Below, piece by piece: positions 3,776-64,000 of a DNA stretch of 64,000 nt. The translations under genes and the position numbers were made by a program. Source of the stretch: Urechis unicinctus (taxonomy: Eukaryota > Annelida > Polychaeta > Xenopneusta > Urechidae); NCBI GenBank assembly GCA_034190875.2, contig CM067355.1, positions 31,700,684-31,764,683 of the forward strand, written 5' to 3'. The number at the start of each line of letters is the position of its first letter. Positions within the stretch are counted from its first letter, which is position 1. The notes under the pieces were generated by a model that saw nothing but the letters and a program-made list of their open reading frames with translations, did not search any database and was not told where the DNA came from.

Positions 3776-4140
3776 GTTGTCGATCCAGCCAACCAGAGAA
3801 AATGCTAATTCCGTTTTGGATTTTGGAATCAATTCGACAATAAAGATTGCATTTATCGGAATCGAATACATTTATTGAACCTCCTGATGCTCGAGAAAAA
3901 ATTCTTTAATTTCTGCTCGGAAAATACATTCAAACTGCTCGGCTGGTGTTCCGCAGATCTCAACTTTCCTATCCATCCTCTGCAAAACATCATCCAGTTG
4001 ATAAGGTCTCGATGTCAGAAGTAGATTTGCCTCTTGAAGCAGGTGTCAAGTTATCAAGCTCGTCATCAACTTGGCCAGACTGGTCGCCATTAGCAGTCAG
4101 GGACTGGATGGAATTCCATCCTGAAATTTTCTTCGTAATA

Positions 4141-4160
4141 TGGGATAGAATTCTATCCCA
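4141..4160. repeat. 20-bp perfect palindrome upstream of the RAG1-like gene
   Basis: The sequence equals its own reverse complement over 20 bases, centred on GAATTC, about 160 bases before the proposed start codon at 4323. Role unknown. The rest of 3776-4322 holds no recognisable gene; an 80-codon frame at 3946-4188 resembles nothing I know. Confidence 0.85.
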
Positions 4161-4322
4161 CCATCAGCAGCGTGGTTACTCAGAATGATAACTACAGTAT
4201 CCCTGTTTTCTTCGACTATTTTATATAATTTGCGTGGATCATAACGATGTTGGTTGATTGATGACGCCTGCGATCGACAAACCGGACTATCGCGCGCTGA
4301 ATTTTATGTAAACAACCCGAAA

Positions 4323-7300
4323 ATGGCGGAAAACAACGAATTCTATGCTCCAAATGGTAAGTTGAAATATGCTATTTTAATCATTTTACAAGCGCGACAT
4401 TGAAGCGAAATAACGTGTTATGTATTTGTGAGTTATCCTAGAGTTTAATGACCAAGATATATATATAATTACACCGACGATCTTTGCAAAATGTAGTGAT
4501 TAGTAGGAGCACCCGTAGTCGGGTTTCTCCCGCCATGAGCCCTTACGGACGGCTTTCGATCCCACGTTTCTCAAATCACTCTCTGTCCAAGAATTCTTGT
4601 GTGAGCTATGTCAAACTGTCAAAAAGAGTTGCATGAATACTGCATTTGTAAATTTAATTTAAAATTTTTAACAAATTACAACTTGTCTTGAGACAATTCT
4701 CAAACACTGATTAAGATTCAACCCAGAAGTAATAATAAATTAATGGCCACCATTCTTTACTAAGGTTACAGGTTCAAGCTTATCTGTAAATGCATTGACA
4801 TTAAGTAACTACTTAAGTGATGAAGGGCATGTTAATTATTCTTAGTTAAGTGCATGATTAATATAAGTGATTTAATGCATGTTAAGCAAGCTCTCTTCTC
4901 TATTTTGTGATTATTTCCTGTAGACATGGTGCATGAACAGTCTTTTTCTCCACAAACATACGAGGACTCTCACAGTGCGGTACTAGCCAAGTTATGCCGG
5001 ATTTGCGCTGAACCTGCCGTGAAATCTCCAGGGTCAAAATTTAGATTTGCTCCACAGTTCAAATCCTTCTTTGGTGTTGAAGTGACATGTGAAGACCCTG
5101 CAATCTTTCCCAATTTGCTATGTGCAAGGCATGTGACATTAATGTATCGAGTCAAAAGAGCCCAAGAAAAAGAGAAAACAATTGCTACTACTACACAGCT
5201 TGCAACATTTGTGGCGCATGACAGTATCTGCCAGCTTTGTAAGAAGTTTTCACATCCTGATATGATTGGGTCGCCAGCAAAGAGACAGAAGACAGAAGCT
5301 ATCACAACATATCGATGGACCCAATATCATGGCAAGTCAGGTTCGATTCTTGAAGAGTGCTCCAAACTTCCCCCTGAGGAAAGGGTCGACCTGATTATTG
5401 GACTGGTTAAGACTTTACCTGAGAATCATCGGGGGAAGCTATACTTTATTCTCGGTGTGTTAGAGAGAGGATCCCTTGATCAAATGATGCACAAGTCGAG
5501 TGATCAATATTCAAGCATTGATCAATTAGTGTCCCGTGTGCCACAAGATATTGTGCACAATGCTGGCTTTGCATATGTCAAGTTTCTCAGAGGACTTTGC
5601 CATATTGAATTTGGTGAACTATTGGTCAACCGAAAAGCCTATCAATTAGGGCTAGTGATGGAGCTTCTGGCAAAACTGAGGAAGGCTAGTTTTATTGGTC
5701 CCTTGTCATTCCCCATCATCATCAACGTTTTTGGAATAACAAACAGTAAACTGGCCATCAACATGATAGGCTCTGTCTCAGCCAGTGGTCAGTATGCAGC
5801 ACTTTCCCAATGGCTTGACTCCCAGGCAACAGAAAAGCCCATCTGCCCTCCTGGTGACTTAATTTGTATGTTTGACAATGAACAAATTATAGGCAAGTCC
5901 TGGAACATTTCTCCTCAAAATAAGGTCAAGGTATCGGTGATTACAACTGTCTCTGTTGTACAGCTCACTGAGACAACTATGTATCAGAATAGGAAGGATT
6001 TACATCCAGGCAAGTGGCTCAAAACCCAAGGCAATGAAGATCTTATATCTGAAATGTGTGAGCATCCAGATGGTGAAGACTCTGAATATGCTGCCTCCAT
6101 GAAAGAAATTCATCACGAACAACTCTATTTATTTGTTCAGGCAGCCATTGAGGAAGTACTGGCTGAGCAACAAGTCAAGGAAGGACAATGCATCGATACC
6201 ATCGATCAGATAGCTGCAAATGTTGATCTGGCAACCAAATTTCGACAATGCCCCTCCTGTCACCAGCAAGTCGAAAAAACAAAACGCAAGTGCACACATT
6301 GCATGGAAAAAATGCATGTTCCTGTAGAAAACAATTCAACGTGCCATATAGCGCCCAAGAAAGCTCCAACTGTAAAACGCTTTGACACTGCCGCTCTTAC
6401 AGCCCCCAAGCAAAAGCCCCGTAAACAAGCTGAGAAGAGCAGATTCGAACATGTTCCTCATGGACACAAAGAGGGCAAGTCTCACCGAACAACTATGCTG
6501 GACCCTGTATTTGTCAATCCAAACTCAGTCGACAACATTGCAAAGGTTTTGAGACATATTGGCAAAGAGGTTGGCATCTCTCGATATGGTGGCCGAGATC
6601 GACATTGGGTGGTTCTCTGCTGCGATGGCTTGCCATATGGGTTAGTGTCACAGTTAGTGAAGGACTACCGTGTCTGCCTTGTTTGTAAAAGAGGATTTAT
6701 GGGAACCAAAGCCTTCCAAAACCATGCCACTTGTGACCATCCTGAGGATGATGTTGGGTTTCTTCTTGAATTTGATTGGGTTCTACTGAAGACAGGAGAC
6801 GGTCACTATGAAATGAACTTGATCAAAACATTTGTGGAATTGAACTGGGAAACGTTCTTCAAAAGGTTGGTTTATCGAATGGGTTGGCGGTCAGACACTG
6901 CTCAACAATGTGCCAAGAAGTGTTATGATCACCATAAATCCTGGCAGTTGTTTTCTGCGTACTACTTTGGAACGCTTCAAGAACTGGTGCAGCCATATGT
7001 CCAACAGTGCTTGTGCTCTGACCAAGAACCAACACCTCAAGCCTTTTATTCATTCTGCAAGAATGTCAACAACCCCAACTTCCTCTTCATGTTCGAGATG
7101 CTGTGCCGCTATGGACAAGCGATTTTCAACTTCAGAATGGGGATAAGGCGCAATAATTGTGACTTGGTCGCATCAGCTCGTTACATGTCGAAGGAACTAT
7201 TCCACGGACGTACTCATCCCAAATACCAGTCCATAGAAATACATGACATGTTCTCCAGAATGGCAATGCCCCAGGAGCTGAGGAACTTCCTACAGAGCCA

Positions 7301-8000
7301 CGAATCTGTTTCGAAAAATGGAGAACCATCTAAAGGTCAAGGATATGACTTTATCCTTGAAGAAGATAATAAGGAAGTGAAAAGATGGATAAGAAGAGGT
7401 GTTGCATCTGACAAAACATGGCTTTCAGTTTGTCGCAACAAAGATAAACTGCAGCAGTTGCGGATGCAAGTGTTCGAAAGTATTGCTCTGACGGACTCTG
7501 ACAGTAGCCAGAGAAATGTGGATCTGTCAAGTGCTATCCTGGATTGGAGGGTTTGTCTGAGACAGACAAAATTCCTCACAGAGCCTTCAGATTCCCAGAC
7601 TTCAATAGATGGCCAAGTATTGGATTCACACCTACTAAACTTCACCTCCCTTGCGACCCGTAAAAGATCCTATCGAGTTTTGAAGTTACTTCTCTCTCAA
7701 GCGCCCCCAGATGATTCCAGTCTGAGTCACCCCATCTATGTGACACCACAAGAAAACCAGTCCTGGAATGCCCTGGAAGCCCAGTCAATTGCCACAATTG
7801 ATAATAGAATTTTAGACCTGATAGATCAAATTCAAGATGACGACGAACAGTCTAAACTACTCGACAGGTTCAGAAAGAACATTCTGGGGAAGAGGAAGGC
7901 CCTCCATATCAATTTCTTGGAAGAAGTTCTGGCCTCTATGACTGCTGACCAATTATTTAACTCAGCCACTGATCAAGTGAGTAGGAATAATCTGGTTTAG
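4323..8000 (+). CDS. RAG1-N-terminus-like, transposase-type protein
   Basis: The uninterrupted frame 4926-8000 has 1,024 codons. A 34-base upstream exon (4323-4356, beginning MAENNEF) ends at G|GTAAGT and joins the acceptor at 4923 in frame, adding 12 residues. Numbering from the Met at 4926, the N terminus has C24xxC27, then FFGVEV, then C66xxH69 and C102xxC105. This follows the RAG1 N-terminal pattern (LCRIC ... F-I-V ... C-H/C ... CxxC). Further on are a zinc ribbon at C442/C445/C456/C459, and D317 (FDNEQ), D567 (CDGLPY), C584xxC587, H600 and H605, and E629 (HYEMN). This is a plausible DDE triad with zinc ligands between the second D and E. The published Aplysia N-RAG-TP transposon, which encodes a RAG1-N-like protein, is the closest relative I can name. 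I see no TIRs, so it may be either a mobile element or a captured host gene. The end may be spliced (see the next entry). Confidence 0.8.
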
Positions 8001-8149
8001 TGGGGTAGAACTTAATGTAGCTCTATGTTTAACCATTTGGTGTGGTGACAGAAAGTAGTGGAACTGATCAAATCATGCATAGGTGGATTTGGTAATTGAC
8101 TTTCCTGATCATGAAATGATTGAACTATAATACTTTGTTTCATATGAAG

Positions 8150-8221
8150 ATGTTACAGTGATCCTGGAAAAGCTGGCTAGTGGTGGTGGTGATCGGTGGA
8201 CTGATAGCGACCAATGCTCAG
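8150..8221 (+). CDS. Possible 3' coding exon of the RAG1-like gene
   Basis: Between an AG at 8149 (or 8158) and a strong donor at 8222 (G|GTAAGT), one frame reads VILEKLASGGGDRW and TDSDQCS. Splicing from a donor at 7981 (GTG A|GTAGG) would join it in frame and replace the last seven codons and stop of the long ORF. Alternatively the ORF simply ends at 8000. A further acceptor near 8396 would add only V-D-H before a stop. Splice-site reading only. Confidence 0.3.
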
Positions 8222-8431
8222 GTAAGTTTACTTGTTGTATAGTGACTCAATACTTATCTGTAAAGGGTGTTGCATGCACTTGGCATGAAATACATATGTT
8301 AATACCTGAACAAGTGTGATAGCATTTACCAGCGTATGAATCAGAAAGACAGTGAAGATTAACTCAATAATTACTGTCTACTGTCTGATTAGTGGATCAC
8401 TAACTCGTTATGTCCTGTGCCATGAAGTCAA

Positions 8432-59480: not shown

Positions 59481-64000
<4,520 letters not shown>

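Follow-up and report, generated by a model that had tools for sequence, protein, structure and literature searches.

A probable cut-and-paste transposase of Urechis unicinctus that carries a RAG1 N-terminal-like zinc domain beside a DUF6589-like core

The 64,000-nucleotide stretch of Urechis unicinctus DNA analysed here (the window) contains a single long frame, which runs on the + strand from an ATG at 4926 to a stop at 8000 (1024 codons, P0001; the stop-free frame around it spans 4911–8000) and which is very probably the transposase gene of a DNA transposon that moves by cut and paste, has 5'-CAG...CTG-3' ends and duplicates 5 bp of its target. Residues 23–106 of the encoded protein (4992..5243, + strand) can be shown by sequence comparison, by way of relatives, to be homologous to the N-terminal zinc region of RAG1. 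What stands out is that this RAG1-N domain is joined to a DUF6589-type transposase, in an element with 5-bp duplications and near-identical copies. The first-pass annotation of this DNA had placed an intact RAG1-N-like gene at 4323–8000. Its 1,024 uninterrupted codons are present, and the Cys and His positions C24xxC27, C66xxH69 and C102xxC105 of the protein are exactly as claimed; the start is not, as 14 stops are met when 4323–8000 is read from its first base, which rules out 4323 as the start of the ORF. Overlooked at that stage were a terminal repeat at 4094–4121, a pair of ATTAG sequences, the fact that the locus is repeated and the match to DUF6589. Chance is excluded as the origin of the frame, 1024 open codons with stretches that recur at 96–99% identity in seven other loci being far beyond what chance would produce.

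The window copy of the transposon extends from 4094 to 8387. It opens with a 28-bp terminal inverted repeat, CAGTCAGGGACTGGATGGAATTCCATCC (4094..4121, + strand; starting CAGTCAGGGACTGG), which is preceded by the left target-site duplication ATTAG (4089..4093). In DNA alignments with copies that keep their left end, homology begins at 4094 (one alignment begins 4 bases earlier), and the 5' noncoding part of the element (4122..4925, +) lies inside such alignments at 96.9–99.6% identity. Downstream of the gene, the remaining 3' part (8001..8387, +) is homologous to other copies until 8379 and closes with 8 bases ending in CTG, directly followed by the right target-site duplication ATTAG (8388..8392). 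This CTG matches the final three bases of the terminal repeat, and nothing else of the right repeat is kept. CTGATTAG occurs once in the window, and ATTAG alone 65 times. Because homology to other copies ends at 8379, the right end of the window copy has been lost: about 1.84 kb is missing, including the right repeat, and in other copies the left repeat recurs, inverted, about 1.84 kb beyond the position equivalent to 8379. Having kept the whole gene and lost its right end, the window copy is therefore probably no longer able to move itself; its protein, if expressed, could act in trans on other copies. Elsewhere in the window, a long AT/GT simple repeat with self-complementary arms occupies 764–1170.

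The window protein was searched against its own genome (1.19 Gb, 926 contigs), as the annotation had proposed for establishing copy number, and gave at least 56 protein matches, a lower bound, 45 of 303 first-look candidates having been scored. Eight loci, the window included, contain stretches at ≥96% identity to the window protein, and among these the window copy alone has a full-length uninterrupted gene. A complete copy (C9) measures 6137 bp between its two terminal repeats. With at most 2 mismatches allowed, the terminal-repeat pattern occurs 42 times in the genome, and a reversed control pattern 0 times. Different 5-bp target duplications flank the copies of the window's own family A (C3 ATATA, C11 TTCAC, C5 TTTAA, C9 GTATA and ATTAG in the window), of the L026-like family B (TTCAG, TTAAT) and of the L028-like family D (ATAAA, ACATT), and all three families start with CAG. 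Such duplications are found in nine of the ten copies from these three families in which both ends could be read, the exception being the family B copy L023, which has damaged ends. Copies C3 and C11 have in common an internal deletion equivalent to window positions 6233–7922, and as one and the same deletion is found at two different targets, movement of a deletion derivative is indicated. The family as a whole thus presents inverted repeats, target duplication and internal-deletion derivatives, the features by which cut-and-paste transposition is recognised, and the earlier call of a transposase-type gene is borne out by its copies, terminal repeats and target duplications. Summed over seven copies, changes relative to the window ORF comprise 38 synonymous, 36 nonsynonymous and 3 stop changes, with 25% synonymous expected for random change; the excess of synonymous changes is only a hint of past constraint, because changes shared between copies were counted more than once.

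In one internal-deletion copy (L012:2847-4157) the frame, open from a point shortly past the first CxxC, fuses the N-terminal part to the last residues of the protein, the proposed catalytic residues D567 and E812 (see below) being absent; L014 carries the same deletion with the frame shifted. The KP derivative of the P element is a precedent for repression by an internal-deletion product, and by analogy the L012 product, if translated, could act as a repressor.

The homology of residues 23–106 to RAG1 was assessed with profiles and with Smith-Waterman alignments scored against 1000 shuffles in which every Cys and His was held in place. The case rests on relatives because the window protein alone tests weakly. 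The Pfam model RAG1_imp_bd (PF12560, curated cut-off 23.3 bits), which we take to be the Chapa domain of the literature, scores 20.0 and 20.8 bits against N-terminal pieces of the window protein of 165 and 125 aa, respectively, and has no match at E≤1 in the whole 1024-aa protein. Against the relative L026 it reaches 41.9 bits for the N-terminal piece and 33.7 for the whole protein, and against L040, another genomic ORF, 37.9 bits, over the cut-off. A genome search with this model at E≤0.001 gives six places, of which five belong to the L026 family and one is L040; the window locus is not one of them. The alignments follow the same pattern. The window domain against mouse RAG1 107–224 gives a score of 35, which 253 of the 1000 shuffles reach and which is not significant, while L026 and L040 score 98 and 84 against mouse RAG1-N, and the window scores 101 against L026 and 132 against L040, with 0/1000 shuffles reaching the score in each of these four cases. 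With hhalign, the window alone against RAG1-N yields 33.6%, and the three sequences (window, L026, L040) combined in a joint profile yield 96.9% against human and mouse RAG1-N (E 1.5e-10, score 61.6). The profile check put forward in the annotation favours RAG1-N for the joint profile and the relatives and is weak for the window protein by itself. As in the RAG1 N-terminal region, the order of elements is CR(I/V)C ... (I/V)(D/E/N)(I/V/L) ... P...C ... H....CxxC, with a shorter loop between the first and second cysteine groups (offsets 0, 3, 42, 45, 78, 81 here versus 0, 3, 65, 68, 100, 103 in RAG1-N). A sequence search identified a solved structure of the RAG1 N-terminal region (21wb). The domain in the window protein would bind zinc and may contribute to dimerisation, to DNA binding or to nuclear entry.

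The C-terminal half of the protein contains a match to DUF6589 (PF20231) at residues 758–857 (7197..7496, +; E 6.6e-6, 25.5 bits), 1.5 bits below the curated cut-off of 27. Related core proteins from this genome were collected in an alignment (A1) of 11 members. Among these, L037, L038 and L039 are incomplete, and L027 is a stop-to-stop piece whose start lies beyond the first CxxC. The alignment does not include L022, L023 and L024, whose frames are partial or broken, nor L029, L030, L031 and L034, all near-identical to L028, nor the near-identical copies of the window element. DUF6589 matches at E≤1 are found in 10 of the 11 members (best 9e-7), and the genome gives 70 matches at E≤0.001 among 102 scored of 253 candidates. 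Candidate catalytic residues emerge from the conservation in A1: D317 of FDN(E/N)Q as putative first Asp (5874..5876, +), kept in all nine of the 11 rows that cover it; D567 as putative second Asp (6624..6626, +), invariant in 11/11 rows, as is the CxxC that follows it, C584xxC587 (6675..6686, +); and E812 of ExxN as putative Glu (7359..7361, +), which together with N815 is invariant in all 11. This D...D...CxxC...E layout is likely that of the CACTA/Mirage/Chapaev/Transib group, and D317, D567 and E812 would then make up a DDE-type RNase H-like active site in the style of that group. The mouse RAG1 residues D600, D708, C727/C730 and E962 we take to have the D, D, CxxC and ExxN roles in the same arrangement, which the window core resembles without statistical similarity to the RAG1 core. 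DDE catalysis is what we infer from the layout, because no similarity to the RAG1 core was detected and a search for a solved relative of the window protein found none (best E 0.29). With hhalign, the core (window residues 230–880 with relatives) gave 0.5% against the mouse RAG1 core, a weak test because the RAG1 core recovers even HzTransib at no better than E 0.0036. A search of the genome for the RAG1 core, run without a positive control, gave no match, in line with the non-vertebrate genome that the annotation had thought likely, and 24 pattern matches in each of the IMG/VR and GTDB contig sets yielded 0 confirmed relatives. For the core, the profile comparison suggested by the annotation, which had named Transib profiles beside RAG1-N, turned up neither PF12940 (Transib), for which the Pfam results of the window protein and of the other A1 members were examined, nor, within that weak test, the RAG1 core, its positive outcome being the one for RAG1-N by way of relatives.

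That the N-terminal cysteines and histidines might resemble RAG1-N only as zinc fingers in general do, with no common descent, is a reading to which the window protein alone, with its score inside the shuffle range against mouse RAG1-N, lends some colour. We nevertheless consider it highly improbable. The best of 100 column shuffles of the joint profile with the Cys/His columns fixed scores 25.0 against the 61.6 observed, so the resemblance goes beyond a generic zinc-finger pattern, and PF12560 exceeds its cut-off in L026 and L040; the annotation had named a better match to an unrelated zinc-finger family as grounds for dropping the RAG1-N assignment, and the next family for the L026 piece is zf-AD, at 15 bits against a cut-off of 28. 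Scarcely any probability attaches to a domesticated host gene that has kept the RAG1-N domain. In its favour, the frame is intact, and two other RAG1-N ORFs (L040 and L043) have no DUF6589 match inside the ORF; against it, the window gene is flanked by a terminal repeat of a transposon on one side and a target duplication on the other, and near-identical copies of it are present elsewhere. The multi-copy nature of the element and these copies exclude a domesticated single gene, and the 'domesticated relative' offered as an option in the annotation is not borne out.

A transposon of the Chapaev lineage with unusual ends, in which the RAG1-N domain is the Chapa domain and the core a divergent Chapaev core, is the other reading we have weighed, and we think it unlikely. 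It draws on the report of Kapitonov and Koonin 2015 (PMC4411706) that, among known elements, only Chapaev, Chapaev3 and TransibSU have the Chapa domain, which in TransibSU is a truncated N-terminal part of RAG1. The hallmarks generally given for Chapaev, 3–4 bp duplications and CAC...GTG ends (PMC4079192), speak against it, being 5 bp and CAG...CTG here; the distinction is one drawn from this description rather than from Chapaev sequences. The reading we prefer and retain below is a DUF6589-type cut-and-paste transposon with a RAG1-N domain.

A tree of the 11 core proteins from this genome places families A and B (window, L026 and L027), with support 100/100, on one side, which is the side that carries RAG1-N. 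The N termini of L028, L032, L033, L035 and L036 gave 0.6% against the window/L026/L040 profile and 0.8% against RAG1, that is, no RAG1-N; the L037, L038 and L039 rows lack an N terminus. A second ORF stands tail-to-tail with the transposase in L028, L031, L032, L033, L034, L035 and L036 (second-gene coordinates L031:2708-3736, L032:3226-4482, L033:1695-3587 and L036:6851-7591) and combines a MADS-like N-terminal part with a PHD-like C-terminal part; in L035 the two parts lie in different frames, and L029 and L030 have broken versions. In a Pfam scan of the second ORFs of L031, L032, L033, L035 and L036, the only match over its curated cut-off is SRF-TF in L031 (E 2.5e-8). Matches under cut-off are SRF-TF in L036 (8e-6), L035 (6.6e-4) and L032 (0.0086) and PHD in L036 (7.9e-5), L033 (5.2e-4), L032 (0.0059), L031 (0.013) and L035 (0.11), and the RAG2-type PHD model is not among the matches. 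The L033 ORF is without an SRF-TF match yet aligns to the other MADS-like parts (0/500 shuffles). In families A and B the second-gene place is taken by a same-strand ORF (L012:4846-5448 and L026:9319-9855), in neither case with a Pfam match, and this region is absent from the window copy. Against the MADS-like parts, the family A accessory ORF is equalled by 0 and 2 of 500 shuffles for two relatives and by 12, 14 and 93 of 500 for three others, which is only suggestive of a MADS-like nature; for the family B ORF against five such parts the counts range from 21 to 427 of 500 and are not significant.

The domain also occurs in two shorter ORFs. L040 (C12; L040:1575-2465, − strand) encodes 297 aa, with a RAG1-N domain that exceeds the Pfam cut-off, and has 14 matches in the genome in all, with high identity at its own place alone. 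L043 (C7; L043:192-1532, − strand) encodes 447 aa, in which a RAG1-N-like domain, scoring 21.3 bits and so below the cut-off, is followed by about ten AT-hook-like repeats. A DUF6589 scan limited to these two ORFs gave no match.

Without constituting proof, the element is of interest for the origin of the outer part of RAG1, because here a RAG1-N-like domain is joined to a different catalytic family. The 2015 analysis cited above (PMC4411706) reports the Chapa domain from Chapaev and Transib-type elements alone among transposable elements, and places its fusion with the core in the common ancestor of the two. If DUF6589 is distinct from Chapaev, RAG1-N would be a mobile module that combines with catalytic cores of more than one kind. 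In the literature searched, we found no mention of DUF6589, no account of a transposon with MADS and PHD finger parts and none of a RAG1-N plus DUF6589 element, though the original N-RAG-TP may be one. A wider proposal, which we put forward tentatively and regard as improbable in its entirety, is that DUF6589 elements with CAG ends and 5-bp duplications form a superfamily of their own, often with two genes (transposase and tail-to-tail MADS-PHD partner) and with one clade bearing RAG1-N; that the non-core N terminus of RAG1 was drawn from this pool and not inherited with the Transib core; and that L040 and L043 are independent uses of the domain. The protein of the window copy is intact and lends itself to tests of what the domain does, be it zinc binding, DNA binding or dimerisation. 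Near the last positions of the window, a + strand exon-like frame at 61784–62152 has a PRC2_HTH_1 match over cut-off (E 6.8e-6) and resembles EZH1/2; it probably belongs to an Enhancer-of-zeste-like host gene.

Set beside known systems, the element shares features with several. Transib terminal repeats start with CAC, and those described here with CAG. Transib and RAG transposons have a 5-bp target duplication according to a review (PMC8355894), likewise the length found here. The CMCT group, as described in PMC12730594, has CA...TG ends, a target duplication within 2–5 bp and a CxxC after the second Asp, all of which recur here, with ExxN near the end as in RAG1 E962; for the group's H(3–4)H between the second D and the last E, the candidate here is a proposed HxxxH pair of which H764 is present in 11/11 A1 rows and H760 in 3/11, those of families A and B. 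In RAG1 the N terminus adjoins a Transib core, whereas the RAG1-N-like domain here adjoins DUF6589, and no RING finger is among the Pfam matches of the window protein; the tail-to-tail two-gene arrangement of the relatives recalls the RAG1/RAG2 pair. The nearest precedent is N-RAG-TP of Aplysia californica (Panchin and Moroz 2008), a transposon whose protein resembles the N-terminal part of RAG1 (PMC8355894, PMC2996935) and which, in the review's wording, is made up entirely of RAG1 N-terminal-like sequence (PMC8355894). Compared through these published descriptions, the window element has a DUF6589-like core in addition, together with defined ends and target duplication, and the two may belong to the same family.
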